DNA of 29,767 bases from Stramenopiles sp. TOSAG23-6 (Eukaryota; Sar): contig LT635968.1 of the NCBI GenBank assembly GCA_900128565.1, forward strand, positions 1 through 29,767, read 5' to 3'. The position numbers were made by a program, and so were the translations under genes. A model generated the notes under the pieces. The model was not told the DNA's origin. It made no database searches and was given only the letters and a program-made list of their open reading frames with translations. Below are positions 1 through 29,767 of this stretch, in pieces (within the stretch, counting starts at the first letter, position 1; each line of letters begins with the position of its first letter).

Positions 1-54
1 TTTATACCTAACAAATTTAAGTTTTTTTTTTTGAAATATTTTTCCAAAATACAT
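1..54 (+). mobile_element. Introner-like intron, 3' part only
   Basis: The window opens inside an element: TACCTAAC at about 6-13, a T tract, then GAAATATTTTTCCAAAATACAT ending at 54. It is the same 3' arm as in the other copies, and the end is AT rather than AG. Confidence 0.75.
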
Positions 55-354
55 GAAGTTACGGGTATTCCAAATGGTAAAATATTATGTACTACAATCG
101 ATGAGAATAGAGACATTATGTACGTTTTCATTATGAATTTCAAATTTATCTTTTTCATAGAAAATTTCGTACCTAATGAATTTCGAATTTGAAATATTTC
201 TTCATAATCCATGAAAGATTTGCTTGGTGTAAACCCTCAGAAATTTCGACCAAGTATTCCTAATCTTGTGTATCAATATTCAGTATATTGTAATTATAAT
301 TCAATACGACTTTCACAAAGAAATGAAGAAATTCCAGCTGACCCACAAGTATAA
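55..354 (+). CDS. 3' end of an unrecognised gene (two exons)
   Basis: Two short exons, 55-119 and 213-354, are separated by an AG-less element (120-212). Joining them at the element ends gives an open frame of 69 codons ending in TAA at 352-354. The translation contains GIPNGKILCTT, then after the junction KDLLGVNPQKF, and ends EEIPADPQV. I recognise no domain. A second frame is open in the first exon but stops about 60 bases into the second, so the frame used here is preferred but not certain. The gene starts upstream of the window. Its 3' end converges on the RCHY1-like gene with only 122 bp between the stops. Confidence 0.4.
120..212 (+). mobile_element. Introner-like intron, divergent copy
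   Basis: It starts GTACGTTTTC, has the core variant TTTCGTACCTAAT, and ends CATAATCCAT. Removal restores an open frame (att at | g aaa). ATG is directly repeated at the two ends. It is one of the most degraded copies, suggesting an older insertion. Confidence 0.65.
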
Positions 355-476
355 TTAAGTATTATTCTCATAAACATAAAAGAAATATCAAAAAAAGTCA
401 TTAGTTTAACATTTATTTTACATTTCAAACAATTATTTCGTTCGACATGTGTTATAAGAACCACATCTATTAACAA
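355..476. other. Convergent intergenic spacer
   Basis: This spacer lies between the TAA of the leftmost + gene and the stop of the RCHY1-like - gene. Most of the right part is one copy of a 44 bp duplication that also covers the end of the RCHY1-like coding region. No other signal seen. Confidence 0.6.
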
Positions 477-515
477 TTATTTCGTTCGACATGTGTTATA
501 AGAACCACATCTATT
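428..515. repeat. Exact 44 bp tandem duplication (2 copies)
   Basis: Copies at 428-471 and 472-515 are identical. The right copy holds the last codons and stop of the RCHY1-like gene; the left copy is therefore a duplicated coding end lying downstream of the stop. Confidence 0.95.
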
Positions 516-1697
516 TGGATGTGTTCGTCTAGAAAGATGATTTGAAACGGGAGGTCTTGATTCGTGTGCTGCTATTGCAGTTCTTATAAGACTTGGACGT
601 CGATTTGATTCCTGTGCTGCTATTGCAGTTCTTATAAGACTTGGGCGTCGATTTTCTATTGGTGACGAAGAATTGGAATCTCCGCCGCCGACAACACTGG
701 CTGCAGCCACAGTAACCTCTAAAGATGGTGTTGAGTTTCCAAAACCAACAGAAATGGCAGCATTAGCAGCATCGCGGGCTACAGTTATATATTGTTGTTC
801 TCTATTCGTTTCAATTTGCTCCGAATCAGTCATGTTTCTAAATTGATCTGAAATAATTTCACTACTAGAGGTTTCATTAATCTCGGGAAGTTCAGATTGT
901 TTAGATTCGGTATATTCAATATCAGAAGATTGTCTATCAGATAATAATGCCATGCACTTTAACCCAACAACATGCCACTGTGTCATTGATTTTCTATTAC
1001 AATCGTAGCAAAGTACCTCAACCATTTTATCTCTATACTCTACTGGCATTGGAGTCCTCAAAATTTCCTGATCTAAACGAGTAAAGTAATCCGACAAGTA
1101 TTTATCTTGCACTAAAGACTTCGAACAAAGGGGGCACTTATATGTTGTTTCCAATAGTTTTTCAAGACAATCCTTGTGAATTCCATGACCACAACGCATT
1201 GAAGCAACTTCTTTACGGGAGTAAAAAAGCTCATCCATACAAATAGGACAATTTGAAAGCATGGCATTTTCTATACAGTTGTGTTCTCCATCAGTAGTGA
1301 AGCACGTGCCGCACTTTACGCAATGCTCATAATTCTCTCGGCCACCTACTCGACATATTCCACACTCATTGCAGTGGAATTGTTCTTTTGATGTGTCATC
1401 GTCAAAGAGCCGACAAGTCATACAGCTGTAATTTCCAAAGCATACACCACAATTTTTACAAGACTCGGACAAAGGTTGGCGTACATCACAAACCAAACAC
1501 TGAAGCTCTGTAACTGCAAAACGATCCAAACTATGCATCTTCTTCGGGTTCTTATAATCGTCTGCATACTTTTCATCGTGACAAAAACGGCATGTAAATA
1601 CTTCATTACAACAAGGTGCCACCAAGGCACAACTTCGCCTATAATGAGCACAACCATGTTTAACCGTACCCATTCTTGTAGTTGACAAATCCATCAT
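477..1697 (-). CDS. RCHY1/PIRH2-like CHY and RING zinc-finger E3 ubiquitin ligase
   Basis: Intronless frame of 406 residues. An N-terminal CHY-type zinc finger (about residues 12-90, HGCAHYRRSC and following Cys/His pairs) is followed by a CTCHY segment (about 91-145), then a RING finger (about 150-191: CPIC, CGHGIH, CPLC) and a zinc-ribbon-like region (about 218-250, CYDC...). This order is diagnostic of RCHY1/PIRH2 and plant CHY-RING ligases, which transfer ubiquitin from an E2 to substrate proteins. The C-terminal 150 residues are Ser/Thr-rich and include a 16-residue tandem duplication, each copy starting NRRPSLIRTAIAA, with an RRxS basophilic-kinase-type site. Two adjacent ATGs occur at the start; the first is taken. 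The stop lies in the 44 bp duplication. Family certain, substrates unknown. Confidence 0.88.
   Translation of the reverse strand: MMDLSTTRMGTVKHGCAHYRRSCALVAPCCNEVFTCRFCHDEKYADDYKNPKKMHSLDRFAVTELQCLVCDVRQPLSESCKNCGVCFGNYSCMTCRLFDDDTSKEQFHCNECGICRVGGRENYEHCVKCGTCFTTDGEHNCIENAMLSNCPICMDELFYSRKEVASMRCGHGIHKDCLEKLLETTYKCPLCSKSLVQDKYLSDYFTRLDQEILRTPMPVEYRDKMVEVLCYDCNRKSMTQWHVVGLKCMALLSDRQSSDIEYTESKQSELPEINETSSSEIISDQFRNMTDSEQIETNREQQYITVARDAANAAISVGFGNSTPSLEVTVAAASVVGGGDSNSSSPIENRRPSLIRTAIAAQESNRRPSLIRTAIAAHESRPPVSNHLSRRTHPNRCGSYNTCRTK
557..652 (-). repeat. 48 bp in-frame tandem duplication in the RCHY1-like gene
   Basis: Two copies (557-604, 605-652), nearly identical, encode the 16-residue unit NRRPSLIRTAIAA(Q/H)ES twice. 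The period is a multiple of three, so the frame is kept. Confidence 0.93.
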
Positions 1698-2183
1698 CGG
1701 AAATCCAATAAAGTAAAGTATCCTATTGGGAAGTTAAGGCGAGCTAGGAAATTTTCTGCTTTAGGCTTTAGGCTTTCGTTTGTAATCTCAACTGGGACAT
1801 TCTGAATTCAAATATTCGGAGAGTGAGTGAATATACAGCTTCTTAGCGCCTTGTAATAGCCTGTAGTGCCTGTGCGACTGAACACAAATATCAATCAGTG
1901 ATGTTGACACGTGCCACGGTCAACCGACACAACCGTTTCAATCAACACAAATATTATTATTATTATTATTATTAACCGTTAGCTTGGGTAAAATAACGTT
2001 TTTTCAGTTCTGCATGTCATTTTTATGAACAAAATTCGATTATTAAAAGTCAACCAAAGGAACTCGAATTATTTTTATAACGAAATTTAACTCAATTACT
2101 CAAATCAAAATGCTTCCCGAACAAATATAGCATGTAATTTAAAAAAAAAAANCATTATTTTATTCAACAATTTAGACGTAAAT
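1698..2183. other. Intergenic region: RCHY1-like promoter side and glycosyltransferase 3' side
   Basis: 486 bp between two - strand genes. It must hold the 5' leader and promoter of the RCHY1-like gene and the 3' UTR of the downstream gene. It contains an (ATT)7 microsatellite, a short CTTTAGG heptamer repeat near 1755-1780, and an A-run with an ambiguous base at 2152. No gene or introner element is visible. Confidence 0.6.
1953..1974. repeat. (ATT)7 microsatellite
   Basis: Seven uninterrupted ATT units in the intergenic region upstream of the RCHY1-like gene. Confidence 0.95.
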
Positions 2184-4953
2184 TTATTTTTCTTGCATAA
2201 AATGCTGAAAACCTTTTCGGAGTTTCATGTGTTTCCATCCATCTAGTAGTAGCTCATCATATTTCAACCATCTATTGGAAACATTGCAAAAGGGTTTCTT
2301 ATTCTCATGACATAGACCTTGTGTTTCAGCTTCCTTTACATTACAAGAGCAAGAATCAATTTCAGTGTTATCACGAAATAAGTTTTGTACTTTTGGCACT
2401 GCAATTGCTCTAAGCCAAGTATAATGCTTAAAATGATGATTTTCCCCTATACCATCAACAACTTCTTGTTGAGTCATTAATGCAGCGACGTCGAAGCCAG
2501 CTGCTTCTAAATGCCGTTCTAATGACTCTTCACTAAAACCTACAGAATGAATATCTCCAGGACTCTTCTGTCCACCAAATATATAGTATGAGGAAAGATC
2601 TGCCTTCCATACACCATTGACCAAATTCTTACACAAACCTGTCAATGATGGTACGATGACTTGTAATGTGCCACAACATGGTTGCAACACTCGATGCCAT
2701 TCTGATAGAACAGTTTCAACCTCAGCATGTTTGAAGTGTTCTAAAATGTCCTTTGCAAGTATCTGTGAAACTGAACCATCTGGCAATTCCCACATATTTC
2801 CTACATCAAGACCAACTACAATTTTTCTACGCTTTTGAAGTGTTTCTTTGGTATCATTATTTTTTCCTATACCAATACTATCCCAGAAAATTTTCACTGT
2901 TGGTGGGACACTTTCATAATTTGAGTTTTTTTCTATTCTTGAACCAACCCATTTGTCAATATTGATCCAAGGAGGAGGTAAAAGCATATCTCCAGCACCA
3001 ATATTCAGATAGATATTACTCGGTAAGGTACTTGGCAAATTTCCTAATGCATCATAAAATAACCGACCTCCGTATAATAATGGGCTATTCCCATGTGCTG
3101 CTACATAGTTTTCTTCGTATCCATTATATATAAGGCCACTGGTGGTATTCGAAATATTTTCATTCTTATTTAAATGTAATAAGTATTTTCCGGCTTGATG
3201 TTTCACTGTATCTGCTTTCAAAGTTGTATCTTTTAAGTAAAACTTGGTTATCTCAGATGGAAGCTTTGCCTTCCATTGCCTTGAAAGTTGGCCAAACAAT
3301 TCCGATACTTTTTTCCATTCCATTTCTTCAGTTTTTGTACTACGTTGTAGTGCGGCAATGGATGCATTTTCTAACTCATTTAATGCATACCACAATGTCT
3401 TAACAATGTCAATATTTCCATCAATACTAGAATGATTTTTTTTGTTTGCTTTATTTGTATGGCTCGCACTCGCTGTAGCAGCAGCAAGTAAAGTTGCGGC
3501 ACGGTCAACCGGATCTTGAATATCCTCCCAAAAATATTCCCTTAACCAATGACGAGTATTCAAATGTTTTGCAAAATATTCTGACTCACTCTTGAAATCA
3601 GTAACATCCACATTATTTATAGGATTGAAGTAAGATTTTGCCAGAATCGTAACTTTACTTGGTGCAATCCCAAAAGCCCGACTTAACAATCTTGGCCCAG
3701 TTGCGTTTAATACATCCTTCATATGTGAACTATTAATTGCTTCCACTAAAACGACTTCCCAGAAGGGGTGCCTTGGTGGTGATGCCATTAATGCATTTTG
3801 TACATCTTCATTCAAAGAATTTGCAGATGCAACAATATGAACATTCTCTTGGGACAAATATTTGTAAAAGTTTGCATTGCAGACATAGTCCATGTCTGCG
3901 TAAATTCCACCTATCTTTTGTAAAATAAGGTAACGCGCCAGATCTACTCTCATTATTTGTTTAGGATAACTATCATAAAGTTCTAACATATGCACTGCAT
4001 TATTTTTGACCCAAAGTCTTAAGGAAACATCCGTCCATAATATATGTTTATATTCAGTAGGTGGAAAATATAAATTCCAAGTTTTGTGTGCGTTAATCCA
4101 ATCAGTATGCCAAGTGGATATATTTTCACTGGGAACCATTTGATGAATTATCTTTGGAATGTTGTCAACTTTTTTATTTGGTATGTGTGGCTCTAATTGG
4201 GCGTCAGTGAGAAGTTTTGTGTATGACACTCCCACTTCTTTATTATCCGAAATAATTGTTGTTGCAAGAACAGGAAATAAACGAAGACACTCAACTGATT
4301 CATTTAAACAAACTGTAGAGAAAGCTTTTTTACATTCAATTTGAATGGGGCTCAGATCTTGTTGAGTTTCAATAATTGGGATCGTGTAATGTAAGTTAGA
4401 GGGCGTTGACCAAGAAATACCACGTATTGTGAAAAAATATTTCAAAAAAAAATCGTTAGGTACGAAATTTCGTATGCTGCTTGCAGAATGAATATATAAC
4501 ATCAACCGGTTGCTGTCCTTCCATAATATGCAAAATTCCTAAACTTATCTCATTTTCTTTAGTATCAATGGTACAATGACTTGTCAAAGTTGTAACTTCT
4601 TCTTCAGTGGTAAATGCACAGCGCCTATCAGTGTTTCTAAGAATAAAGTTTCCAGAACCATCAAGCAGAACTTCTGCCACAAATATGATGGGTTTCGTTC
4701 GATTGCACGAAACTCTATCAAAGCTACAAGCATCAATTAGAATATCATTTCTCAATGTCCATGGTAGATCTTGTCTATTTTTCATGAAATCAGAAATGAC
4801 GTCAACTGGTTCAAAGCCTTCATAAATAATAACTGTACCAATATCCTGGCCGTCTATCTCAATCTTTCTCTCATACAACAATTCAGGTATAGAACAAAGT
4901 ACATTTTTTGAAAGCAGGAGTAACACAATAAAACATAGTACTTGAGGCAGCAT
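2184..4953 (-). CDS. OCH1-like (GT32-type) glycosyltransferase fused to a SAM methyltransferase domain, secretory pathway
   Basis: Two exons (4953-4476 and 4423-2184) join in frame to about 905 residues. The ATG at 4953 is chosen because it begins a clear signal peptide or signal anchor (MLPQVLCFIVLLLLSKNVLC). Next come two related N-terminal segments sharing PVDVIxxF (one ends PVDVISDFMKNR, the other PVDVIYSFCKQ), the second crossing the intron. The transferase domain follows: IPKIIHQMVP at about residue 248 and the metal/sugar-nucleotide motif GGIYADMDY at about 332-340, as in OCH1/GT32 enzymes. The C-terminal third has class I methyltransferase features: LNIGAGD at about 632-638 and LAKDILEHF at about 715-723. 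Inference: a Golgi enzyme that adds and may methylate a sugar on glycoprotein or glycolipid. Donor and acceptor cannot be told. Confidence 0.8.
4424..4475 (-). mobile_element. Introner-like intron, shortest copy (5' arm missing)
   Basis: It begins directly at the palindrome (ATACGAAATTTCGTACC), continues CTAACG, a T tract, GAAATATTTTTTCACAATAC, and lacks the GTATGTTTT and T-rich 5' arm. The coding frame before and after, and the conserved PVDVIxxF repeat that runs up to it, fix the junction within about 2 bases: AT-AC or AC-GT type, not GT-AG. Confidence 0.75.
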
Positions 4954-5241
4954 TTTCTTTAGAAATATAGTTTTGTTTTGACGCACTGATAGGTTTACTT
5001 ACTCAATGAAGTGTTAATTGGTAACATTTGCATCAATAATGTTGATTAGATGCGAATAATTACAACAAAAATGAAAGATCGTAGTCGAGAGTACCAACGC
5101 GATTTCGGATTTCGATTTGATTTCGACGGTTTCAACTACCCTACCGTCCGTTGAAGCAAACAAGGTATTGTTCCCATTATTCTCAATATCATGTTATTGC
5201 ACAATGAACTGGTAGACTACGTATAATACTTATCGAAAAAT
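4954..5241. promoter_or_regulatory. Divergent intergenic region, probable bidirectional promoter
   Basis: 288 bp separate the ATG of the glycosyltransferase (-) from the ATG of the EMAP-like gene (+). Both promoters must lie here by position. No TATA box or other motif stands out. Confidence 0.4.
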
Positions 5242-8200
5242 ATGGGACAGAAGATAGGCAAATGCCAGCTCCGGCCAGAGTTTCAAAACTCACTAATATT
5301 AGACATGGCTTTATTATCAAAACTTCAAGAAAATATACAGAAATGTAGAAAAGTCAATAGAGGTAAAAGCTATAATTGCACTTCCATAGTTTTCAATGAT
5401 GTCGCTGGGTTCTTCATATCTAATGAATACGATGAGAAGAAAGTGACTTCTCTACTCTTCGAGGTTTTGGATACAGATGGTGATGATACTATTGACTTAT
5501 TGGAATTTTACATCGTTATGGTTTTTTTATCTACTATATCTAGACCCAAGAAAATTGAGTTGATCTTCAATACTTATAATTTCCAGCAAAAGGAGCGCAT
5601 TAGTGTAGCTTTGCTCTTTATAATGATTTCAAGTTTGACTTCAGGCCTATCAAAGCTTGCAGACACTCCGAGTCCAAGTCCAATTGTATGCCAAAGTCAA
5701 ATTCTACTAATATTAGGTTTGAACATCGAACAAAGCAGACGTAAAATGCGCAAGATATTAAATAAAGGAGTTTCGATAGAAATGGTTGCAGAATATATGT
5801 ATAGCTCATCAAGTGTTCAAACTTGGTTTGATTATTTTAATCTCACGGCAACAGGCCGAATTTCAACTGATCGATATGAAGAAACACAAAACGCTTCAGC
5901 AATTGTTAGACAAATTCAACGCCTTTCTCACAAAGTTAGTCTTCTCACAGTAGAAATTAGTGATCGAAGCTCTGAGTTAGTGAATGAAATATGTGAGTAT
6001 CAAAAACAGCAATTAAGACACGAAATAACAATAGATACATTCAGGAAGCGTTCAAAGGAAGTGTTAAAAAATTTGGAGAATGAATTGGAAATGGAAGTAG
6101 CAGACAGAATTTTTTTTAGAGATAAATTGACTCATCTAAAACGAGGAATTAATTTTTCAAAACGAGACATCCTTGAAGTTAAACAAACAATAGAAACATT
6201 GAATAACACAGCGTATATACCAGGCTCGAAACTGAGTAGCACAGTTCAAGCACGTCGGGAAGCAATGAGATTGTTAGAGATTTGGTCTGCTTGTCAAATA
6301 GCCGAACAATTTACTAGACGTCCGACCAATCAGGCTGAATATTTGATCACTGAAGAAAACAGCAACCCTAGACCACCAGTAAAAGGTGTAATTATTCCAC
6401 CTGACGTTAACTTAAAACTAAGCTGGATATATGGGTATGATGGAAGTCTCGGAATGTGGCATAATGTGCGATATAATAAAAAACATGATATTGTATACAC
6501 TGCTGCACAGATAGGTGTAGCGTTAGACAAAGCTGCTTGGTCTCAAAAACATATGATAAGCCATAGTCATAAAATATCTGCATATACAATGCACCCAAAT
6601 AGAATTGATATTGCAACTGGAGAATTTGGCGAATATCCATCTATATTAATATGGTCATCTTTATTCCCAAAGGTTCCAAAAATACATTTAAGTGGATTCC
6701 ATGCTGTTGGTGTTGGCAATCTAGCATTTAGTCCATGTGGAAAACTACTCATTTCAATAGGAAAAGATCCTCTTCAGCATATTGCGGTGTATGAATGGGA
6801 AAAAGAATTAATAGTATTTGCAACACCAACTACATCATGTCGCATAAATGGTGTTATTTCCTGCTCATCTCGGGGCTTCATAACGTACGGCGAAGATCAT
6901 TTGTGCTTTTGGAAAGAAAAACCAACTGCATGTATGTTTTAATTTTTTTTCAATTTTTTGTCTAAATTTTTTTTATAGGAAATTTTGTACCTAACAATTT
7001 TTTTATGATTTTTTTTTGAAATATTTTTCCAAAATACATCTGACATTGAAAAAGAAAGAAATAGGATGAGAATGGAGAGGATAGCACGACGCGCATTACA
7101 TAGTCAAGCAAAAACCAATGCACGTGGGTCGGACTCGGATATATCTCCAATCAATTCTCCAAAGGTTGATCGTTTTAGAAAGCACAATATTTCTACAATA
7201 TCTGGCGGTAGATTCCAAAACTTGGATAATGATAAAAATAATGATAAAGAAACTGCAAAATCCAATAGAAATCCTCAAGATGTAACTGATAATCATACGA
7301 TAAAGTCAACGGAGTTTTATGGGATGTGTGGCCTTTCGCGAATGAAAAGTTCACCCAAAACATTCTATTGTGCTTCAGCAGTATTAGGCCCTGCAATCAA
7401 TGGAACAGTTTTAGAAAACGATAATAATGGTATGAGTATACTGGGATCTTCGTGTGGTAAGCTATGCTTATACCATGGCCAGCACATGCTTTGCTCGATA
7501 AGTGCTCATAAACAATCTCTGGGTGGTTGCACTTCTGTATTTTCATGCTCACATGGAATACTTAGTGGTGGTGGGGATGGTCGCCTTTTTGTATGGAAAT
7601 TAAAACATACAGAAGCGGACGGCTATAAGCTAATTATTCATAAAATGATTGAAGTTGCACAGTTTGGGTGTTTAACGCCATGTGTACAATCGTTGTGCTG
7701 GCATGATAATGGCGACACAATAATTCTTGGTGTTCTCAGTTGTGAAGTGTATGAAATATCCTTACTTCAAAACATTGATATCAATAACGGACCTATAATA
7801 CACTGCCATTCTGCGCGAAATGAAGTTGGGGAAATGTGGGCACTTGCTGTGCACCCGACGTTACCTCGTGCAGCAACGGCTGGAGATGATGGTATCGTAA
7901 GAGTTTGGGATATAAAAACACATAAACAAATAGCTGCTGTGCGAATGCGATGTATGTGTCGTTCGGCATCGTATTCCTCGAAGGGAACATGGTTATGCAT
8001 CGGTTTAGGTGGTCCCGAAGAGATCCGACCAAAATCATCACGTAAAGATGGCGCATTTTGTGTTGTGAACCCAAACAATTTGAAAGTAATATGTGAAAGA
8101 CGTTTCTCACATGCGTGGATATCCGCCGTTACATTTAGTGCAAATGATGAATTTCTTGTCGTGGGCACTGGAAGTGGTGAGATATTCTTACATCGATGTG

Positions 8201-18091: not shown

Positions 18092-19788
18092 TTATGATGA
18101 GAAAGAATCAATACTTGAAGAATTAATTCCTGCTTTTTTTTTCATTTTATCTTTACCCATCAATATATCAATTGAAGCACGTTCATGTGAAGGAACACCA
18201 TTGAATGAACTTTTATTAGAATAAGCCTTATCATCCGATTCAGATGTATTTGAATCTGAATGATAGTTGTCAACATCAGAAACGAAAGGGGATATAGCGG
18301 GAGATGTGGATACTGTAGAAGGTTCTATATTGGATTGTAACACTAATGCTCGAGGAACAATTGAAGCATCGGATTGAGTTCGTCTTAAGACTTTTTTTTT
18401 TTTTTTTGAGATTACTTCGATACTGTTTCGTCTTCGATTTTTTTTTGGTTGTTTCGATTTATTGCGAATATTTTTATAGAATGGGAATAAAGGTTTCTCT
18501 CCTTTCCTCGCATTATCCTTACATACTTTGGCAGCGTATTTGAGGATACGATGAAGTACTGTATAATCAATACCACTATTTCTAATACAGTGACTATATA
18601 TCTGTGGATTTGAATTAAGTTCAATAATATAGCCACCCCCTGATTTATACGATTTACTTAAATCTCCTAAGAAATCAATTCCAATCATCTTTTGGTCTGG
18701 AAACATTGCTGCTACAGTTTCACACATTTTAAAATTGTGTTTGTGCATAGCAGCAATAGGAAATCGAAATGCTTCAGCACCAAGTGACACATTTGCTTTA
18801 TCCTGTACTACTCGCCACTCATGTCTTTTGGAAAAATATTTCACAAAAAAAACTCGTTAGGTACAAAATTTCGTACAAAAAAAATCGAAGTTGAAAAAAA
18901 ATCAAACATACATCATTCTCGGGAACATCGTCAAATGGACCTAATGTTTTACTCACTTTTATTATTGATATCCGACTTCGTTTTCTAATTCGATTATGTT
19001 TAGCTACAAGTTCAGCAGTTGTGGATGAACCATCCCCTAAAACACGAGCTGGAACCCTAACAGCTATATCGCATATTACCCCTCCAAGCAGAAGAATCCT
19101 ATAGTCATGACCTGACACCTGTTTTTGAATTATACATGGTGATGAATTACTTTTCCATTCTTGTGACAAAGCAACCTTAATTTCTTGAAGCGAGCTTAAC
19201 CCCATAACAACTCCTTTCCCCTGAGAACCTTTAATTGGTTTTACCACATAGGGTGGAAAAGTTTTTTTTGGAAGTCGTGGTTCTACACCCAGGTCACGAT
19301 GAACAATAACAGTTGGACAAACAGGCATGTATTGTGAAAAAATATTACAAGAGTTTTGTTATTAGGTACAAAATTTTTCAAAAAAAAAAATAGGTAAAAA
19401 AAATAATGAAAACGTACATAGATTTGGCCGATAAGAATCGATGCGTTTCAAATTTATCTTTCATTACCTTTGCAGAACGTGTGCAACTCAAACACTGAAA
19501 CTTATGTTTCTTAATGATGAATCCAGGATCACCTCTTGGAGGTCTAATATACACTTGACTATTTCTTTTTGACATAACTTCGACATTCCAACCAGATAGG
19601 TGTTTAGCAGCATCAGCATACAGATTTGTGTACTGTGAACGACACCTTCGAGGAACACTGCGAAATTTTTTTTCAACCCTAGCCCAATTGATTCTGACAA
19701 AAAGTGAGTTATGTGGGTCCTCGCAATCCCCAAATTCGTTTATACTATTTTCAGTGGAAATATTTGGAGAACTCAAACACATTCCCAT
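18092..19788 (-). CDS. ATP-grasp ligase-like protein related to cyanophycin synthetase / GshAB
   Basis: Three exons (19788-19418, 19326-18912, 18820-18092) give 504 residues. The start MGMCLSSP fits dual N-myristoylation/palmitoylation (Gly2, Cys4), suggesting membrane attachment. The ATP-grasp fold runs from about residue 115 to 335: KDKFETHRFLSAKSM before the domain, VVKPIKGSQGKGV (ATP-binding Lys and Gly loop), QKQVSGHDYRILLLGG, RVPARVLGDGSST, and the metal-binding ELNSNPQI at about 328. RVPARVLGDG and the surrounding pattern are typical of the ATP-dependent amide ligases in cyanophycin synthetase and bifunctional glutathione synthetase. The Mur-ligase half of cyanophycin synthetase is absent, so polymer synthesis cannot be assumed. 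The tail (about 390-504) is Lys- then Ser/Asp-rich, including a 16-base A-run encoding KKKKK. Substrate unknown; possible bacterial origin of the domain is inference. Confidence 0.78.
18821..18911 (-). mobile_element. Introner-like intron 2 of the ATP-grasp gene
   Basis: Read on the - strand: GTATGTTTG, TTGTACGAAATTTTGTACCTAACG, GAAATATTTTTCCAAAAGACAT. Removal joins aat gat | gag tgg in frame inside the ATP-grasp domain. ATG is repeated at both ends. Confidence 0.9.
19327..19417 (-). mobile_element. Introner-like intron 1 of the ATP-grasp gene
   Basis: On the - strand it runs from GTACGTTTTC through TTTTGTACCTAATAAC to TTCACAATACAT. Removal joins tct at | g cct, giving KSMPVCPTV, the expected continuous segment before the ATP-binding loop. 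Confidence 0.9.
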
Positions 19789-20113: not shown

Positions 20114-22028
20114 CTACTCATCACTGTCATCGACAATAATATTAACTCTGTCCCACGAATTATTAAGGATTCCACGTAAATTCCAGATTGACGCAGGATT
20201 CTCAGGTTGTGTATTGAAAGATTCATCAATTGCTCTAACACAAAGTTCAACATTTCTACCTTTTTTGTCATTCACTACAGAAATTTCAGTGGGAAGACCA
20301 ATACTTTTATCACCATCTTCAGAAAGCACAACATCAGCCTCCCATAGAGTCCATGTACTGTGAAAAAAATATTTCAAAAATTTGAAATTCATTAATAAGG
20401 TAATTTGATGCAAAAAAAATATTTCAAAAATTTGATACAAAAAAAAATAAATTTGAAATTCGTGATGTAGACGTACATGCCCAGGCTTTGCCTAAAGGTT
20501 GTTGTGATCCTTCTTTTAATGTAGCAGTGTGCCAATTTTCACCACCATCAGCCGAGACATCAACCCGAACAATTTTTCTACCACCACCAGCCCAAGCATA
20601 GCCAGCAACTGAAATAGCTTCACCTTTTTCTGCTTCAATCACTTCACCTTCTTGAGGATAAGTGATTGCAGACTGTACAGGTAACTCTTGTACTGAATGT
20701 CCTTCATTCACATCAACACCAGAAAAATCTCGAATATTAGGACTATATCCTCTATATGCCTTACCTCTCTGCCATGTGCTATATGCCTCTTCATGACTTA
20801 AAGTGATCTTGTCCACCCATTTGACAGAACGAGCACCCAAATGACCTGGTACTAAAACTCGTACAGGATATCCATGTTCTGGTGGTAATTCTTCACCATT
20901 CATTTCAAAGGCAAGCAAAACATCTCCTTGGTGACTGCATGCCTTATGCACGGATACCGATGCGTCATATGGTTTATCTGTAGCAGTAAATTGAACATAT
21001 TTTGCACCCTTTTCCATTGCATCATTTTCAGAATCCACACCAGCAAGACGAAGAACATCACGTAACCAAACGCCACCAAATTCTGCAGTAGACATTGCAC
21101 CTCTGCCCCAAGGTAAACCTTGTGTAGGTCGAATCTCATTTAATCCAGAACGTCTGTTGCCTGCGCACTGTAAAGTCATCACAATTTTTTGTTTGTCAAA
21201 AAGATTTTTCAGATCGTCAATAGTCAAATCCAATTCAACTGAAAGAGATTTACCTCTTATCTTTAATCGATAATCTTTCGGATCAACTTTTGGAACAGGA
21301 AAATGATGACGACAATAAAACAATCCCTTTGGTGTAATATATTTTTCACCTATGAGCGAGGCAGGAGGTTCAGCATTAAAGGCACGCTCAGTATGCACGT
21401 TGAGTGCTGCGCTACGATGACCAGTACCAAATTTAGGTTCATCTATATAAGGATCATCCAATGCCATTGGCTTTGCCTCATTAGGTGCGACATTTCCGAT
21501 GCGCATTTGTCTCAGTGTGTCAGCTATTAGTGCAGCAGGTCCGCTAGCTAAGTGCTGTTGATAAATATCCCAATATGGACCAACATCGGCACCAGCGGCC
21601 ATTGCAATACGGTTCCCACCAGGATGTACGGATATGAAATCAGTAATATCATAAACACCATCTTTATAGGTAACCCATACACCGTTCTCGCTAGTCTTGT
21701 GTTCTGCAATCTCTGCTCTAGTGTATGTGGGAAGACCACTCTTACGCTGCCCAATACTATCTAAAGGATTCGTTTGAGATGATTCAGCAGCCGCTACTAA
21801 TGAAATAGATGACATCGATGATTCACCACCACATATAAATTTGTCGAAACCATTCAAAGCAAGAAACGAGCCTGCTGCAAACACAGAAGCAGCAACTCCA
21901 AGTTTTGAATAATTTGTTCCAGAAGAAGATCTAGAGCTAGAGCCAACAAAACGAACGCATGAACGATACTTACATATACTCGCTCGTAAAGGCTTCGCAA
22001 ATATACTTGAAACACCACGAGAAATCAT
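20114..22028 (-). CDS. SUOX: Sulfite oxidase, mitochondrial
   Basis: Two exons (22028-20477 and 20352-20114) give 596 residues, close to animal sulfite oxidases. The N-terminus (MISRGVSSIFAKPLRASICK, Arg/Ser-rich, then a hydrophobic stretch) looks like a mitochondrial intermembrane-space presequence. The cytochrome b5 domain is at about 105-180 with heme ligands in HPGG (135) and a His near 159. The molybdopterin domain has the catalytic Cys in MTLQCAGNRR (Cys288), followed by RGAMSTAEFGGVWL and PEHGYPVRVLVPGHLGARS. The C-terminal dimerisation domain ends IWNLRGILNNSWDRV. The enzyme oxidises sulfite to sulfate and passes electrons to cytochrome c; it needs molybdenum cofactor and heme. The single intron falls in the conserved AWAWTLW-like segment. 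It is transcribed divergently from RibB. Confidence 0.95.
20353..20476 (-). mobile_element. Introner-like intron in the sulfite oxidase gene, diverged core
   Basis: On the - strand it starts GTACGTCTAC and ends TTTTTTCACAGTACAT. The usual palindrome/CTAAC box is replaced by ATTACCTTATTAATG, and TTTTTGAAATATTTTTTT occurs twice. Removal gives AWA-WTLW, matching the invariant family sequence. The CAG near the end is not used: splicing there breaks the frame. Confidence 0.88.
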
Positions 22029-22292: not shown

Positions 22293-23239
22293 ATGTCAGA
22301 ATTTAGTTCAATTGAACAGGCATTAGCTGCTCTTCGCCGCGGCGAATGTATTATTGTTTTAGACGACGATAATCGAGAAAATGAGGGTGATTTGATTATC
22401 CCTGCAGATAATATCACGCCGGAAGTGATTAGTTTTATGTGTCGAACGTGTACTGGAATAATTTGTTGTGCCACAACAGAACAGCGAGTTTCAGAACTAA
22501 ACTTGCCTCTGATGGTTCCAAAGAATACAGAGAAACATGGATGTTCTTTCACAGTATCTGTAGATTATAGACATGGAACTACAACTGGAGTTTCGTCTCA
22601 TGACCGTGCGTTGACGATAAAACAACTTGCACCTGGCTCAGGAAGTGTGAGCAGTGATTTTAATAGACCGGGTCATGTATTTCCACTTCAAGCCCGTGAA
22701 GGCGGTGTATTGCAACGTGCCGGTCACACAGAAGCGTCCGTAGATTTGGCAAAATTATCAGGATACTCTCCTGCAGGCTGCATTTGTGAAATAATGAATC
22801 CAGATGGAACCATGGCTAGACTTCCGGAGTTAAGATTATTTTCGAAAAAACACAGTCTTCATATGATTACCATAGCAGATCTTATGACATATCGACTCAC
22901 TCACGAAAGTTTTTTGAGTTCCAATTTATTGAAAAATAATTCTGTTGTAAAAACACCATTTGGTTTGTTTAATAAAAGTGTTTTCCGATTCACAGTTGAT
23001 GGATCGGAACATCAAGTTCTAACAACAACTAGAAATACTGAACAACTATTCTCAAGAGGGTTAGGGTTATCTGAAAAAATTGGTGTGGTATTTGTTCACG
23101 TGGAAAGTATTGATGACAACTGTTTGTTTGGCACAAGCAATGACAAAGAAAATGACCCTACCTCTCGTTCTAGTCTCTTGCGTGGTATATCTGACGTTGC
23201 TAAATATTCTTCTAAAAGTGTTGGCGTTGTTATTCATAC
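22293..23239 (+). CDS. ribB: 3,4-dihydroxy-2-butanone 4-phosphate synthase with a decayed, truncated GTP cyclohydrolase II-like domain
   Basis: About 315 residues up to the first element. The RibB domain is complete (about 1-205): LDDDNRENEGDLI at 23-35 (acidic metal/substrate loop), TTTGVSSHDR near 96-105, RPGHVFPLQAREGGVL at 125-140, GHTEASVDLAKL. It converts ribulose 5-phosphate to the four-carbon precursor of riboflavin. A second domain begins at about 215 (TPFGLFNKSVFRF) and resembles RibA but has lost the zinc cysteines: HSECLTGD is replaced by HVESIDDN, and the CDC pair is gone. It stops after about 95 residues (GVVIHT), less than half a normal RibA domain, at an introner element. The next exon is PAN2, not RibA. 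The DHBP synthase should work; a cyclohydrolase role is unlikely. The real 3' end of this gene may be missing. Confidence 0.88.
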
Positions 23240-23338
23240 GTTTTCATCATTCATTTCAATTATTTTTTTTTGTTTTTTGTAATGAAATTTTGTACCTAAC
23301 GATTTAATTTTTTTTTTTGCGTCATTTTCACAATATAT
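23240..23338 (+). mobile_element. Introner-like intron at the RibB-to-PAN2 join
   Basis: ATACGTTTTC at the 5' side, TTTTGTACCTAACG core, and an unusual 3' arm (TTGCGTCATTTTCACAATATAT). Taking GTTTTC as the start gives an in-frame join (cat ac | g cgt); taking ATACG, as required in the copy at 26642, gives a frameshift and stop. The genes on the two sides are unrelated. Confidence 0.75.
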
Positions 23339-26300
23339 GCGTGTTGGTTCTGCTGTTGCAACTTTACAAAATCATTCTGGAAGAGTCAATATGGTAGCTA
23401 GTGAATTCAATACTCTTGTGACATGTGGTTCTTCATTACTTGCCGAACGAACGTCACAACAAATTTGGATAAATGAAAATGTATGTTTTATATGAATTTC
23501 TAATTTAAATTTTTTTTTCATACGAAATTTTGTACCTAACAAATTTAAGTTTTTTTTTTTGAAATATTTTTTCACAATATATGGAAAGGAAGAAGTTAAA
23601 AAAAGACGTTTAGGACCGGACCCAATGATGAATGTGTATGATGTGCGAAGAATTCCACCGACTCTTCAAAAACCAGTAAATTTTAATACCATGGGCATGC
23701 CCTCTAATTTACGTGTGAAACCGTGTGTGCTGGAATTTCTTCCAGGGCATAGACTTCAATTAGTGGCTGCTTCAATATCTGGCATTGTACGTACTTTTGA
23801 TTTAAGTGGTCATTCATTTTCTCCTGGGGCCGATTCACAACTTGCAATGGCTCCAGGCGCACATGTTTCTAGTATTAGTGTATCAAGTTCTGGTAATGTT
23901 ATTGCTTTGGGAGATACTGCTGGTGTTGTGCATTTATGTACAACTACTCCAGAAGATTCTCAAAAACGACGAACAGATGGTAGTGTTTGTATACCAAGCT
24001 TAAATCCTACTGTATGGAGAGTTGATGATCCTCCTCCAATGTGTAGAAAACCGTTGTTATCTATTGATCCATCCGATTGTGCACCAGCTGGGAAATATGC
24101 AATGTTACCTCAATTAGGAGAGAGGATGCGTATCAAAGAAAATCCTCCTCTATTACTCTCTACGCCTTTACGATGGATGGAAAATCAAAGCATGTATGTT
24201 TCCAAAATTGAATGTTTGTACCTACATTTTTTTTTTTACGATTTCAAAAACAAATTGTACCAAACAAATTTCTTTTTTACTAAAAAAAATTTTTTTTTTT
24301 TTTCAAAAACAAATTGTACCTAACAAATTGTTTTTTTACTAAAAAAAAATATTATTTCACGATACATTCAACAGCAACCTGCTCGAGTTATTTCAAAGGC
24401 CGTATTATCTGCTGTCCTTAAAAGTCAACCTGGCGACTATATTAGTTTTGTTTCAAATCAAACATTTGGTTTCAAAAAGGGAACTTTGTTGTTTGGAAAT
24501 ACAGATGTAATCACAGTATCTGACCCCCGTGGTGTAACAAGTACGGAAGATGATGGTGATACTGATGACGTCGATGCAGATTTGCCTCGTGTTGAGTTGC
24601 CTGAAAATTATAAACCTGTTGTTATCGATATGAGAGCTTTGAGGTTTGGATTAGATACTTTTGATTTCGGTTCGTTTAATGGAACGAAATTTGCTGGACT
24701 TGAAAATGGTTTCTCGAATGATTATGTTTGTTCCGAGTTACAAATGTTATATCATATATCACCTATTCGGTCTTTGTTATTAAATCATCTTTGCGCTGAT
24801 CCTACCTGTATTTCATGTGAAACGGCGTTTTTATTTGATATGTTACTTCAGGCTCAAGGTGTATGTTTTATATGAATTTCTAATTTTATTTTTTTTTCAT
24901 ACGAAATTTCGTACCTAACGATTTTTTTTTGAAATATTTGAAATATTTTTTCACAATACGTGGCCCTCCAAAATCGAAAAGTTGCCAACCGACGAATTTT
25001 CTCCGCGCATTACGATTGGTCCCAGAAGCCGCAGCTCTTGGTCTATTGGAAACAAAGGGTAGTCCTTCACGTTTACCTCTTGGAATGCGAATTGAGGCTT
25101 TACATGAATTCTTACTCGAAAAATTTGTGAAGGAATGTGGTGATAACTCAAGAGTTCAAGATTTAATGGGAATCAAATTAAGATCTTTTTGTCAATGTTC
25201 TGAAGGTCACGGTAGTTCCCGTGATACTATTGCGTTAAACACACGACTTCAATATCCAAAATTACCATTGAAGTCAAATATCCCAAGTTTTAAGGATATT
25301 TTGAAACGTTCTTTGGTGAGAAAATTAAAGCAACCTAGAGCATGGTGTAATATATGTAAAAAGTATTCTGCAACGAAGCAAAATATTTGGCCATATTCTT
25401 TACCTGTATTTCTTAGTTTTACTGCGAATGTTAATGTTGGTGAAAAAGCTCGTAGGTTCTCTACCGATACCAAAGATGTTTTACCTGCTGAAAAGTTTTG
25501 GAGCGAGGGAGGTAAAGAATGGTTACCTTCATATATAGCTGTATCTGTCGATGCAGAGGATTCATTTTCTGCCAAAACAAAATGCGATGCTGTTAATTCT
25601 CATGCATCTGAAAACGTACTCATTGCTGAAGGATCATCCTTACAAGAAATCGTTGCATCGCTTGACGAGTTGGATGGACGTGGTAAACCTCCTTTTGTTT
25701 TCGCAAAGCCTAAAGCCGTGTATTTTTTACATACTGAATGTTCAAATGTTTTTTTTGTGTGTTGCATCCAACTGATTCAAATTTTGTAACATTTCTAACA
25801 ATTTTTTATAAACCAAAAAAAAATATTTTTTCACAATACATCGATCTGCTACGTACTCCTGTCAAGGGTAATATCTCTACTGGTAATTTTCCTAAAACGC
25901 CTATTAGTACAAATGACCAGAATAATTCGTGTCAGAGCAGCTGTAATAAAAATGACCAGAATAATTCGTGTCAGAGCAGCTGTAATAATTCTCGTCGTAT
26001 TTATCAGTTACAATCTGTGATATCTCATGTGAATCCTTGTCCTGGGTCTACAAGCACAAGTAGTGGGCATCTGATACTGCATACTCTTTCTAATGATAGA
26101 TGGTTGTTATTTAATGATTTTAAAATTATTGAAGAACCTTTATCAAAAGTTATTGACTTCACTTCACCATGGCGCACAGCATCTGTGGTTGTATACAAAG
26201 CAGTATCAGATGTTGATTCCGAAATGGCTACTGTATGGAAGCAGAGTAAACAAAATATGGTTGCCGCATCTATTTCACCTATCAAGCCACAATTATTTGG

Positions 26301-26438: not shown

Positions 26439-26547
26439 GTATGTTTTATTTTTTTTTTTAAACAAAAAAATCGATTTTTTTTTCATACGAAATTTCGTAC
26501 CTAACGATTTTTTTAGATTTTTTTTTAAATATTTTTCCAAAATTTAT
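26439..26547 (+). mobile_element. Introner-like intron at the PAN2-to-ILVBL join
   Basis: GTATGTTTTATTTT, palindrome TACGAAATTTCGTA at 26486-26499, CTAACG, end CCAAAATTTAT. It joins gac at | t ctt gca in frame; the TTGCAG just after (26550-26555) is coding for LAG of the conserved LAGTVCDFR, not a 3' splice site. The genes on the two sides are unrelated. Confidence 0.82.
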
Positions 26548-28530
26548 TCTTGCAGGTACAGTCTGTGACTTTCGTATGAATTATGGTCGGTGTCTCAAAA
26601 GGAAATCACGAATTATTTCAGTAAATCGTTCAAAAGTTGATATACGTTTTATTATATTTTTTTTTAAATTTGAATTTTTTGTATGAATTTATTTTTTTCA
26701 AAAAATTTTGTACCTAACAAATTTTCAAAATTTTTTTTCAAATATTTTTCCAAAATACATTTAACTTTGAATTCTGATATGTTCTGGAAGCCTACTATAA
26801 CATCTCAATCTGATCCAGCCATGCATGTTTTTTTTTTTTCAAATTTGAATTTTTTTTTTATAGAAAATTTTGTACCTAACAAATTAAAAATTATTTTTTG
26901 AAATATTTTTTCACAATACATGTTTTTTATTTCTCTTGCCAAAATTCTTTGTGATTCTCAAGACAAACTTTCTACGATATGGGGTGTACGTTTTAATTTT
27001 TTTTTTGTAATTTTTTTTTCGTACGATATTTCGTACCTAACGATTTTTTACGTTTTAATTTTTTTTTTTGTAATTTTTTTTTCGTACGATATGTCGTACC
27101 TAACGATTTTTTTTTTTTTTGTAAAATTCGTGTTTTTTCACAATACATGTAAGTATACCTCCATCGAATCATCAAACTTCGATACAACATCCAAAAACAG
27201 AACACGCTGAGAGGAGATCAAAATGGGCTCAACAATTAAAGCAATCACAAAGAGAAAGAACGTTTTCACATTATGAATTTTTTACCTAAATTTTTTTTTT
27301 TTGGTTTCATACGAAATTTTGTACCTAACAAATTTCGAATTTAATTTTTTTTACAATATATGTGAAGCAAAGACTCGAAAAAAGGCGAATGAAATATCTA
27401 TCGGTCGTGGAAGTGCTAAAGGAGAAAGTCTCATCAATCCACTTGATTTATGTATGTTTTATTTTTTTTTGTACGAAATTTTGTACCTAACAATTTTTTT
27501 TAGAGTTTTTTATGTATGTTTTTTTTTTTTTTTAAAATTTGAAATTGAATTTTTTTTTTTTTTTTTTTATACAAATTTTGTACCTAACAAATTTAAGTTT
27601 TTTTTTTGAAATTTTTTTTTCAAAATACATGTTATCATTTAGATGCTTTATTACCTGACAATAGTATTCTTGTTGCAGATGGTGGTGATTTTGTCGGTTG
27701 TGCAGCGAATACAATGAGCCCTCGTGGTCCTCTCCGATGGCTTGATCCTGGTGCATTTGGGACTCTTGGCGTTGGTGGTGGTTTTGCACTAGCTGCAAAA
27801 TTATGTAAACCAGACGCTGAAGTATGGATTATGTATGTTTTATTTTTTTTTTCGGTAAAAAAAAAAATCGATTTTTTTTTTTTTTTCGTACGAAATTTTG
27901 TACCTAACAAATTTTTCTAAAATTTTTTTTGAAATATTTTTCCAAAATACATATGGGGAGATGGAAGTTCTGGCTATTCATTGGCCGAGTATGACACCTA
28001 CAAACGTCATAAAACACCCATTGGAGGTCTTATCGGAAATGATGCTTGTTGGATGTTTTATTTTTTTTGAATTTTTTTTAACTACATTTTTTTTTTTTTG
28101 AAAATTTTGTAGCTAACAATTTTTTTTTTTTTTTTTGAAATATTTTTCCAAAATACATGGACTCAAATTGAACGTGAACAAATACCAATACTAGATAGTG
28201 ACGTGGCATGTCCTCTTGACTATTGTGCGTACGAAAACGTTGCTAAAGGGTATGGTGGTAATGGTATTGAATGTCGAAAACCAGATGAGAAGGAAATACG
28301 TCAAGTGATCAGTTTGTATGTTTTAATTTTTTTTTTCAATTTTTTTGTCTAAATTTTTTTTTTGTAGTAAATTTTGTACCTAACAATTTTTTTTTTTTTT
28401 GGTAAAAAAATTTTTTTGAAATATTTTTCCAAAATACATGGCACAAAAGAAAATGGCATCAGGCGAACCAATGGTAGTGAATGCCTGGATTGGGAAAACA
28501 AATTTTAGAGAAGGTTCGATTTCTGTATAG
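26548..28530 (+). CDS. ILVBL: ILVBL/HACL2-like thiamine-diphosphate enzyme, C-terminal half in nine exons
   Basis: Nine exons (26548-26641, 26761-26822, 26922-26985, 27149-27272, 27362-27451, 27631-27832, 27953-28050, 28159-28315, 28440-28530) give 326 residues and a TAG stop. The start of the segment, [15 protein letters not shown], lies in the central domain of acetolactate-synthase-like proteins. Then [45 protein letters not shown], and the TPP motif GDG...GND ([10 protein letters not shown] to GLIGNDACW) with [12 protein letters not shown] after it. Homologues (2-hydroxyacyl-CoA lyase 2 in animals) cleave 2-hydroxy fatty acyl-CoA using TPP and Mg. The first ~340 residues, with the catalytic Glu domain, are missing; the frame continues upstream into PAN2. 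Nine exons in under 2 kb, as short as 62 bp, make this the most heavily invaded gene here. Confidence 0.9.
26642..26760 (+). mobile_element. Introner-like intron starting AT (ILVBL 1/2)
   Basis: It starts ATACGTTTTATT and ends TTTTTCCAAAATACAT. Homology (NRSKVD then LTLNSDMFW) places the join at gat | tta act. Starting at the nearest GT instead shifts the frame into a stop, so the 5' dinucleotide is AT. Confidence 0.85.
26823..26921 (+). mobile_element. Introner-like intron starting GC (ILVBL 2/3)
   Basis: It starts GCATGTTTTT, has TTTTGTACCTAACAA, and ends TTCACAATACAT. It joins gcc at | g ttt ttt in frame. The 5' dinucleotide is GC at the place where most copies have GT. Confidence 0.82.
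26986..27148 (+). mobile_element. Introner-like intron with internal 62 bp tandem duplication (ILVBL 3/4)
   Basis: A 62 bp unit (26988-27049, 27050-27111), including the palindrome and CTAACG box, is present twice with one core difference (ATTTCGTACC versus ATGTCGTACC). It ends TTCACAATACAT and joins ggt | gta agt in frame. Confidence 0.9.
27273..27361 (+). mobile_element. Introner-like intron, degraded 5' end (ILVBL 4/5)
   Basis: The 5' end is ATGAATTTTTTACC rather than GTATGTTTT; the core CATACGAAATTTTGTACC and CTAACAAATTTCG are intact; the end is TTTACAATATAT. An in-frame join is cat t | gt gaa; another in-frame placement a few bases away is possible. Confidence 0.75.
27452..27630 (+). 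mobile_element. Double introner-like intron (ILVBL 5/6)
   Basis: 179 bp holding two starts (GTATGTTTT at 27452 and GTATGTTTTTT at 27514) and two TTTTGTACCTAACAA boxes, but only one 3' end (TTCAAAATACAT). It looks like a second element inserted into or recombined with the first, whose 3' arm is lost. It joins gat tta t | gt tat in frame. Confidence 0.87.
27833..27952 (+). mobile_element. Introner-like intron (ILVBL 6/7)
   Basis: GTATGTTTTATTTT, TTTCGTACGAAATTTTGTACC, CTAACAA, end TTTTTCCAAAATACAT. It joins tgg att at | a tgg gga, giving the expected single residue between W-I and WGDG of the TPP motif. Confidence 0.92.
28051..28158 (+). mobile_element. Introner-like intron starting GG (ILVBL 7/8)
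   Basis: It starts GGATGTTTTATTT and ends TTTTTCCAAAATACAT; the core is TTTTGTAGCTAACAA. The conserved GNDACW-TQIER requires tgt t | gg act. Excision from the GT in ATGTTTT gives a frameshift and an early stop. The intron begins GG, or is shifted within the GG repeat found at both ends. Confidence 0.88.
28316..28439 (+). mobile_element. Introner-like intron (ILVBL 8/9)
   Basis: GTATGTTTTAATTT, TTTTGTACCTAACAA, GAAATATTTTTCCAAAATACAT. It joins agt tt | g gca caa in frame. Its 5' half closely resembles the intron at 6932 (shared TTTTTTGTCTAAATTTTTTT), so the two are probably recent relatives. Confidence 0.9.
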
Positions 28531-28787
28531 ATCTTGAAAAATGTATGAAATGTACTTTCATGAAATATTGATTCCAAATGAAATTTTTTTAAAAAAAATC
28601 AACAAAAATCTTTAATTTTTATATTGTAGAGAGTATCATGAAAAATAAAAAATTGTGCTCTAGTCACACTTGTCACTTGATGACTTTTTCGTTTTATAGT
28701 AGATTTTTTTCTTTTTTGTACGAAATTTTCTTTTTGAAATTTTTTTTTTTGAAAATTTTTTTTTTGAAAAATTTCTTTCTGTTTTTT
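28531..28787. other. Convergent intergenic region with a possible introner relic
   Basis: This region lies between the TAG of ILVBL and the stop of the lipid-kinase gene. Around 28716-28775 it holds TTTTGTACGAAATTTTC followed by repeated GAAATTTTTTTT tracts, resembling the right half of an element without the CTAAC box or end. No gene seen. Confidence 0.45.
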
Positions 28788-29690
28788 CTATCCAAGACTA
28801 AATACTCTGGCAATTCCATTATGAGTCTCAACTTGACATCTTCCATACGGCACATGTTCACCATCTAACGAGATATAACCAGTTTTATTTTGATCCAGAG
28901 GCTCTAATCGAAATGCGTCACATTCCAATGTAGTATGAAAAAATATTTCAAAACAAAAAACAAAAAATTGTTAGGTATACAATTTTGTATACAAAAAAAA
29001 AAAAAAAAAAAAAATTGGGTTAGGGTTAGGGTTATGGTTCAAAAAATAAAATGTACACAAAATTACACCTGGGAAATTTATATGTGTTCCTTCTTCTAAA
29101 GGTCCTGCAAACATTCTAAGCATGCTACATCTAGAAATCTTTTGAGCAATGAGAATTTTCCATTTTCCACCAGATAGCTTTGTACCAGGACATTGATGCA
29201 TGTATTGTTTGAAAAATATTTTTTTTTTTTTGTGTATAAAAATTTGTTAGGTACGAAATTTCGTACGAAATGTTTTGAAAAAAAAAAAAAAAAAAAAAAT
29301 TCAAAATTGAAATTGAAAAAAAATAAATAAATTCGAAATTGAAAAAAAAAAACATACATGTCATATGCTGCATGTGAAGTATTTGTTGCCCAAAATAGTT
29401 GAAATTTCCCCTCAATCATCTTCCATGTTTCTCCTTTGGATTTTTTTTGTAAAAGATTTTGGTGAAGTGATGGAAGAGTATATATTGTGGAACAATAAAT
29501 TCGAAATTGAAAAAAAACCCGTTAGGTACAAACTTTCGTACGAAAAAAAAAAATCGATTTTTTTTGTAAAAAAAAAAAAATAAAACATACATGAATAAGT
29601 GTGCCAGTAGGGTTAGTGGTAGACTTTGAATCACTGGGTACCCGGTAAAACAATCGACCTTCATATATCCGAAGATTTAAAATTCGAAGT
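28788..29690 (-). CDS. Sphingosine-kinase-like lipid kinase (DAGK family), C-terminal exons
   Basis: Four exons (29690-29591, 29479-29358, 29199-29069, 28927-28788) join in one frame for about 164 codons and end in TAG. Recognisable pieces in order: LRIYEGRLFYRVPSDSK, GKFQLFWATNTSHAAYDM, CPGTKLSGGKWKIL, SRCSMLRMFAGPLEEGTH, CDAFRLEPL and ISLDGEHVPYG. This is the C-terminal half of sphingosine/long-chain-base kinases, where AFRLEP and DGE are conserved near the end. The family phosphorylates a lipid hydroxyl with ATP, usually at membranes. The nucleotide-binding half with the GGDG motif lies beyond the right edge. Ceramide or diacylglycerol kinase specificity cannot be excluded. Confidence 0.85.
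28928..29068 (-). mobile_element. Introner-like intron containing telomere-type repeats (lipid kinase)
   Basis: On the - strand it starts GTGTAATTTTG, and has TACAAAATTGTATACCTAACAA as core and TTTTTTCATACTACAT as end. Between start and core sits a short array of CCCTAA repeats (TTAGGG on the + strand, 29015-29037) next to a long T run. It joins cca g | tg gaa in frame. Confidence 0.85.
29015..29039 (+). repeat. Interstitial telomere-like TTAGGG repeats
   Basis: TTGGG-TTAGGG-TTAGGG-TTATGG inside an intron. TTAGGG is the telomere unit of many eukaryotes; here it is internal and short, so not a chromosome end. Confidence 0.85.
29200..29357 (-). mobile_element. Introner-like intron (lipid kinase)
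   Basis: On the - strand: GTATGTTTTTTT, long T/A-rich arm, perfect 16 bp palindrome GTACGAAATTTCGTAC (29251-29266), CTAACAA, end TTCAAACAATACAT. It joins gac at | g cat caa in frame. Confidence 0.9.
29480..29590 (-). mobile_element. Introner-like intron (lipid kinase)
   Basis: On the - strand: GTATGTTTTATTT, CGTACGAAAGTTTGTACC, CTAACGGG, end TGTTCCACAATATAT. It joins att cat | act ctt in frame; AT is repeated at both ends. Confidence 0.9.
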
Positions 29691-29767
29691 ATACATTTTA
29701 GAAAAATATTTCAAAAAAAATTTTAGAAAAAATTGTTAGGTACAAAATTTTTTTACCAAAAAAAAAA
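29691..29767 (-). mobile_element. Introner-like intron, 3' part only
   Basis: On the - strand: TTTTGTACCTAACAA, GAAATATTTTTCTAAAATGTAT, then the lipid-kinase exon. The 5' half lies beyond the window. Confidence 0.78.

Follow-up and report, generated by a model that had tools for sequence, protein, structure and literature searches.

The window, a stretch of 29,767 nucleotides that makes up contig C18 of a stramenopile assembly (8.03 Mb; 8,027,113 bases in 408 contigs), is interspersed with copies of one short element that interrupts coding genes. The elements are about 100 nt long, start with GTATGT or GTACGT, contain a GTACCTAAC core and a T-tract, and end in ATACAT. They are very probably U2-type introners in which the duplicated target acts as the acceptor, and which would be spliced without an AG, in departure from what is among the most fixed rules in eukaryotic gene structure. 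An earlier sequence-only reading of the window had proposed both the introner nature of the elements and their AG-less splicing, and reading frame, sense orientation, even codon phases, target duplication and the restoration of conserved proteins all argue for that proposal.

An abundant family in unrelated genes

A pattern scan of the 8,027,113 bases found the exact GTACCTAAC core 2,378 times (1,246 forward and 1,132 reverse), against 62 occurrences (27 and 35) of the reversed pattern in the same bases. The first of these counts is somewhat inflated by mirrored contigs; mirror-image core positions occur in contigs C2 and C4, as expected for amplified single-cell DNA. Ends and flanking repeats were counted in 103 copies parsed from 292,278 fetched bases, with both ends set by weight matrices that were trained on 44 clean copies, that made no use of the reading frame and that favour near-consensus ends; the set includes one double parse (27452-27542) and a few mis-set 3' ends at locus edges. 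Since known core positions guided part of the choice of what to fetch, 103 copies per 292 kb is not a density. A subset of 258,052 bases contains 92 exact cores, and accepted copies take in 75 of these. Within the window, the 25 elements first reported are all accounted for, as 18 distinct parsed copies, four placed by eye and three partial ones; the parser gave 19 rows, one of which (27452-27542) covers part of 27452-27630 a second time.

The median copy length is 98 nt, and the consensus, with slashes at the junctions, is AT/GTAYGTTTT ... GTACCTAAC ... TTTTTYYAMAATACAT/. The donor is GT in 92 of the 103 copies and AG in none, and the A of the presumed branch point lies 27-56 nt upstream of the copy end. 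The 3' variants CCAAAA and CACAA occur in all combinations with the 5' variants GTATG and GTACG, and identity between nearest neighbours has a median of 0.83 and a maximum of 0.94. The 103 parsed copies are thus similar, apparent introns in unrelated genes, as expected of introners. Matches outside the assembly, in viral contigs (three) and genome contigs (16), are isolated and unlike the element, and were set down to chance.

Reading frames point to introns of the sense strand

Seventy-one copies have 150-nt flanks that are each open in a single frame, and in 69 of them the frame survives excision from the GT to the last base; with flanks of 120, 90 and 60 nt the figures are 61 of 64, 51 of 53 and 26 of 27, where chance would give one third. 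An earlier parse by regular expressions had kept 49 of 58 in frame; many of its misses were wrongly placed 5' ends, hence the weight matrices. When 90-nt flanks are joined across a copy, the sense strand is open in 90 of 95 cases and the antisense strand in 13, whilst the copy left unspliced is open in only four of 95. Codon phases are even (29, 28 and 27 copies for phases 0, 2 and 1), as expected if insertion were blind to frame. The window junctions at 23236-23338 and 26439-26547 join different genes and are unusable as splice evidence; the switches of gene identity there are probably chimaeras that arose at the repeat during assembly or amplification.

A two-base target duplication as the probable acceptor

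The two bases that precede the GT are the same as the last two bases of the copy in 73 of 103 cases, against a mean of 56.3 and a maximum of 67 in 10,000 shuffles. Matching exceeds expectation at positions -2 and -1 only; the direct repeat proposed earlier is thus real, at two bases rather than two to three. The duplicated pairs are AT/AT (63 copies), TT/TT (four) and GT/GT (three), with AA/AA, TG/TG and AG/AG also present, whereas in the remaining 30 copies the duplication is not exact, in some because their ends are mis-set at locus edges. This is the pattern that a 2-bp target duplication, usually of AT, would leave. The base before the final pair of the copy (position -3) is a pyrimidine in 102 of 103 copies; 76 end in YAT and 78 in YAY, and a YAY triplet stands before the 5' site in 52.

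Perfect repeats leave the position of the cut ambiguous, and this is the ground for one of the alternatives: that both cuts lie two bases further left (NN..ATAC), giving introns with ends that read AT..AC and that the minor (U12) spliceosome could process. In the 73 copies with a perfect duplication the mRNA would indeed be identical under either cut. Cut placement was therefore compared in the 30 rows with unequal repeats, where the leftward cut produces in-frame stops in ILVBL at 28051-28158 and in locus L004, and in L032, which we read as DHCR24, changes the F in the IPF motif of that protein; in ILVBL at 28316-28439, only the GT cut yields the L of the homologue P0241. Most other unequal cases are silent, weak or uninformative, and three kinds were set aside: the double parse 27452-27542, where the GT cut itself gives a stop; L024 at 7451, where the alternative cut does so but the upstream flank is not coding-like; and unequal rows with a 3' end mis-set at a locus edge. 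Since the earlier cut brings stops into two unequal-repeat copies, the comparison favours a cut at GT..NN. Moreover, U12 introns have a minor-type donor and a branch point near the 3' end, whereas here the donors are the U2-like GTATGT and GTACGT and 27-56 nt separate the presumed branch from the end, which is far for U12. We therefore regard AT-AC-like processing as very unlikely.

Restored proteins and the question of a hidden AG

An AG falls within the last 30 nt of only 18 of 103 copies, and in frame in only two, as against 69 of 71 for the AT end. A single copy of the 103 ends in AG, as ordinary GT-AG introns do, and in that copy AG stands on the exon side too. The first AG after the branch coincides with the copy end in one of 100 copies; in 43 its distance from the end is divisible by three, slightly more often than in one copy out of three. 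The earlier assertion that no copy has a usable AG captures this rarity and slightly overstates it: in SUOX, a CAG lies 5 nt before the end, as CACAG immediately upstream of TACAT.

HSP70 on contig C83 holds three copies of 98, 108 and 92 nt, and its GT..AT product aligns without gaps to PDB Hsc70 chains from about residue 280 to 578, a span that covers all three junctions (residues 305, 362 and 496). At the third of these, IPPM/LRGV is common to five of the seven compared homologues, the remaining two having IPPAPRGV. SUOX spliced from GT to AT reads KAWAWTLW without insertion, as in nine of nine compared homologues, in agreement with the AWA/WTLW junction of the sequence-only reading. Nine copies were excised from ILVBL (2-hydroxyacyl-CoA lyase 2), including the probable chimaera at 26439-26547. 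Of the eight junctions internal to the gene, seven are gapless against its nearest homologue, P0241, and the last (26986-27148) falls in a gapped, variable stretch of that alignment; SDPAM, LDLCY, VWIIWGDG and GNDACWTQ are all restored as in P0241. The earlier GNDACW/TQ junction is thus borne out, whereas the motif first given as WI.WGDG is corrected to VWIIWGDG.

The public gene models choose otherwise. The SUOX of the assembly corresponds to EukProt P0001 (88%) and its HSP70 to P0142 (89%), both entries being labelled GSMAST32; by eye, the exon segments in common show no differences, and the mismatch comes from stretches omitted or changed in the models. In SUOX, the model reads KAWACTTWTLW, with three residues added; in HSP70, STTQ and MLR are lost and HVLV replaces HEVV. 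As read from the DNA, the model junctions in SUOX, and the first and third in HSP70, are GT-AG choices. Could the elements then be ordinary GT-AG introns, with the nearest YAG as their true acceptor? The copies with an AG near the end, the CACAG of SUOX, the slight excess of in-frame first AGs and the existence of a true GT-AG intron in this genome, in HSP70 of contig C282, would all sit well with such a view, as would the use of metatranscripts in the study that is the presumed source of the models (according to the accessible part of PMC5778133). However, an AG is hardly ever in frame where the AT end almost always is, and the models that rely on it break HSP70 and lengthen SUOX. We consider this reading highly improbable; rather, the comparison suggests that the public gene models of the organism are wrong at some introner junctions, those of HSP70 included.

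The same labels bear on the identity of the host, which is probably a MAST-3 stramenopile, as read from GSMAST32. Tara Oceans single-cell genomes of MAST-3A and MAST-3F have been published (PMC5778133, accessible part), and the P0001 and P0142 models presumably stem from that work. Among the best 120 matches of each protein search there was no cDNA of the species; for SUOX and HSP70 the near matches were the EukProt gene models only, at 88-89%, and the best 120 of a further protein search held nothing above 66%.

Ordinary introns and the splicing machinery

The HSP70 gene of C282 (L036, minus strand) contains an ordinary intron of 147 nt, GTAAGT..CAACAG, and also the start of an introner at the contig end, and thus both kinds of intron in one gene. 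AG-ended and, it would appear, AG-less introns coexist in this host. A codon-score scan for further ordinary introns gave two GTRAGT..YAG candidates, against five to nine with six control endings, and five GTRAGR..YAG candidates against four to six in the controls; a stricter run gave none. Of the two GTRAGT..YAG candidates, one is the C282 HSP70 intron and the other spans an introner. Perhaps this single introner family supplies a large share, even most, of the introns here, with a spliceosome that takes whatever dinucleotide was duplicated, as long as a pyrimidine stands before it and a T tract and a CTAAC branch point are in place; we would give this wider proposal an even chance.

As for the machinery itself, a Prp8 gene is present: an open frame of 2,021 aa carries the domain with an E value of 8.6e-231. 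Searches of the partial assembly for U2 snRNA, U6 snRNA and U2AF1 found none of them; the control searches matched nothing either, and absence is not implied. The best match to the U2AF large-subunit model scores 96.9 bits, below the cut-off of 310.3, and lies in a 654-aa frame with two further RRM-like matches, which may be another RRM protein. Removal by the U2 spliceosome with a tolerant acceptor seems the likeliest route; the RNA would then be cut at the points described, with CTAAC as the putative branch point.

Insertion, terminal repeats and removal

We posit the following course of events. A short, non-autonomous mobile element would insert into a gene at a 2-bp target, usually AT, and duplicate it. 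The element would bring with it three signals: GTATGT or GTACGT as a U2-type donor, CTAAC as branch point, and a T-rich tract. The downstream copy of the target would serve as acceptor, and hence most introns would have YAT where YAG is the norm. The host spliceosome would accept this intron without an AG, and the element would be removed from the pre-mRNA as a spliceosomal intron.

The inverted repeat at the ends, described earlier as ATGTAT...ATACAT, is short: four bases (GTAT/ATAC), all of them present in 38 of 49 GTATG copies and in none of 29 GTACG copies. Some known introner families have terminal inverted repeats, and some have target duplications. Pairing between the ends finds no support, with 337 paired cells against a shuffle mean of 332.7 (sd 2.4), a value that 5% of shuffles reach, and in 27 of the 103 copies the minimum-energy fold pairs the ends. 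End pairing is not needed for removal. It is barely credible that the elements leave the DNA, as internal eliminated sequences do in ciliates, or the RNA without a spliceosome, through pairing of the ends, as euglenid introns do, for although short terminal repeats, a 2-bp duplication and the paired folds are in keeping with this, DNA removal has no need of the sense-strand bias, the T tract and CTAAC lie where a pyrimidine tract and branch point should, and pairing barely exceeds the shuffles.

A DNA transposase presumably moves the elements. The MITE-like origin proposed earlier is less secure: the terminal repeats are very short and no autonomous partner was found. Tc1/mariner elements duplicate a TA target, and here the duplication is mostly AT. 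A 364-aa DDE_3-type transposase frame lies between two genes in L060 (C298:5200-8200; 779-1873, plus strand), and its surroundings, on reading, show no terminal repeats that tie it to the family. An introner lies in the adjoining gene near 2145-2245, and an introner-like 3' end lies near 505, both on the minus strand.

Relation to known introns

Several eukaryotes offer partial parallels, compared here on the accessible portions of the papers cited. In the dinoflagellate Amoebophrya, more than 60% of introns are non-canonical, and its introners have 8-20 nt inverted repeats that can fold into hairpins, direct repeats 3-5 nt long, and no clear terminal motif in the portion consulted (PMC7789003). 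The likeness lies in repeated introns, many of them there without GT-AG, in direct repeats at the junctions and in a transposon-like spread; the long hairpin-forming inverted repeat and the 3-5 nt direct repeat are absent here, where a single stramenopile family has a GT donor, CTAAC, a 2-nt repeat and no need of a hairpin. The larvacean Fritillaria has AG/AC and AG/AT as its main classes and a duplicated U2AF; YAY ends its introns and often precedes the 5' site, and 3' AT occurs in 34% of F. borealis introns (PMC13326754). Our family shares the YAY end (78/103) and the YAY before the 5' site (52/103), whereas its donor is GT (92/103) and never AG, and only the acceptor departs from the rule.

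Introners of diverse eukaryotes are likewise near-identical introns across genes, with target duplications from which splice sites can be recruited; their splice-site nucleotides are GY/AG, with GC and GA donors rare, whereas here the acceptor is the duplication itself, usually AT (PMC9860276). The nonconventional introns of euglenids and diplonemids are also protist introns with non-GT-AG ends, which base pairing brings together, a pairing that is not supported here (PMC12621601, PMC4770533). On these sources, the family shares parts of the Amoebophrya, Fritillaria and general introner systems, and is a full fit to none.

Titles and abstracts, a coverage that mostly excludes subscription journals, gave no account of these introns in MAST-3, and the word "intron" does not occur in two MAST papers (PMC8163842, PMC12614181). 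The earlier suggestion that a GT-AT class may be undescribed therefore applies to the family, to its lineage and to the combination of a GT donor with this acceptor, and not to AT-ending introns as such, which are known from Fritillaria (PMC13326754, accessible portion). On the wider proposal made above, to which we gave an even chance, a dropped AG requirement would have freed a transposon from needing an AG in its target and allowed it to invade a whole genome. The host would join Amoebophrya and Fritillaria as a lineage whose repeated introns accompany a departure from the GT/AG rule. As the other signals look normal and only the acceptor is left to the duplication, such a family separates the AG requirement from the donor, the branch point and the pyrimidine tract, and opens it to test.

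Copies in the window

Table 1. Introner copies in the window. Slashes mark junctions; (s), gene name taken from the sequence-only reading.
Position	Strand	Gene or context	Details	Placement
1..54	+	contig end	3' part of introner	
120..212	+		GTACGTTTTC..CATAATCCAT	by eye
about 4422..4476	-	glycosyltransferase-like gene	3' part, without 5' end	
6932..7039	+	EML-like WD40 gene	GCAT/GTATGT..ATACAT/CTGA	
18821..18911	-	ATP-grasp-like gene (s)		
19327..19417	-	ATP-grasp-like gene (s)	CTAT/GTACGT..ATACAT/GCCT	
20353..20476	-	SUOX	GT..AT gives KAWAWTLW; without CTAAC core; CAG 5 nt before end is the public-model acceptor and adds three residues	by eye
23236..23338	+	joins DHBP-synthase and PAN2-like pieces	probable chimaera	
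23481..23582	+	PAN2-like gene		
24194..24367	+	PAN2-like gene	longer, core duplicated	
24861..24961	+		GT/GT duplication, AGGT/GTATGT..ATACGT/GGCC	
25718..25841	+		diverged, with TTTCTAAC	5' end by eye
26439..26547	+	joins PAN2-like and ILVBL pieces	probable chimaera; TTGCAG just downstream, if used, would bring in-frame stop	
26642..26760	+	ILVBL	starts AT	
26823..26921	+	ILVBL	starts GC; junction codon ATG fits SDPAMF of P0241	
26986..27148	+	ILVBL	duplicated core; junction in gapped variable stretch	
27258..27361	+	ILVBL	starts GA	
27452..27630	+	ILVBL	two head-to-tail introners, one removed unit; LDLCY as P0241	
27833..27952	+	ILVBL	VWIIWGDG restored	
28051..28158	+	ILVBL	GG..AT; GNDACWTQ restored; cut two bases earlier gives stop	
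28316..28439	+	ILVBL	GTTT/GTATGT..ATACAT/GGCA	
28928..29056	-	sphingosine-kinase-like gene (s)		
29200..29357	-	sphingosine-kinase-like gene (s)		by eye
29480..29590	-	sphingosine-kinase-like gene (s)	TCAT/GTATGT..ATATAT/ACTC	
29690..29767	-	contig end	3' part of introner	

Two minor features of the window were seen alongside these copies. TTAGGG-like repeats (GGGTTAGGGTTAGGGTTATGG) lie at 29015-29035, within the introner at 28928..29056, and two tandem duplications lie at the CHY zinc-finger gene, at 428-515 (44 nt, identical) and 557-652 (48 nt, 96%).
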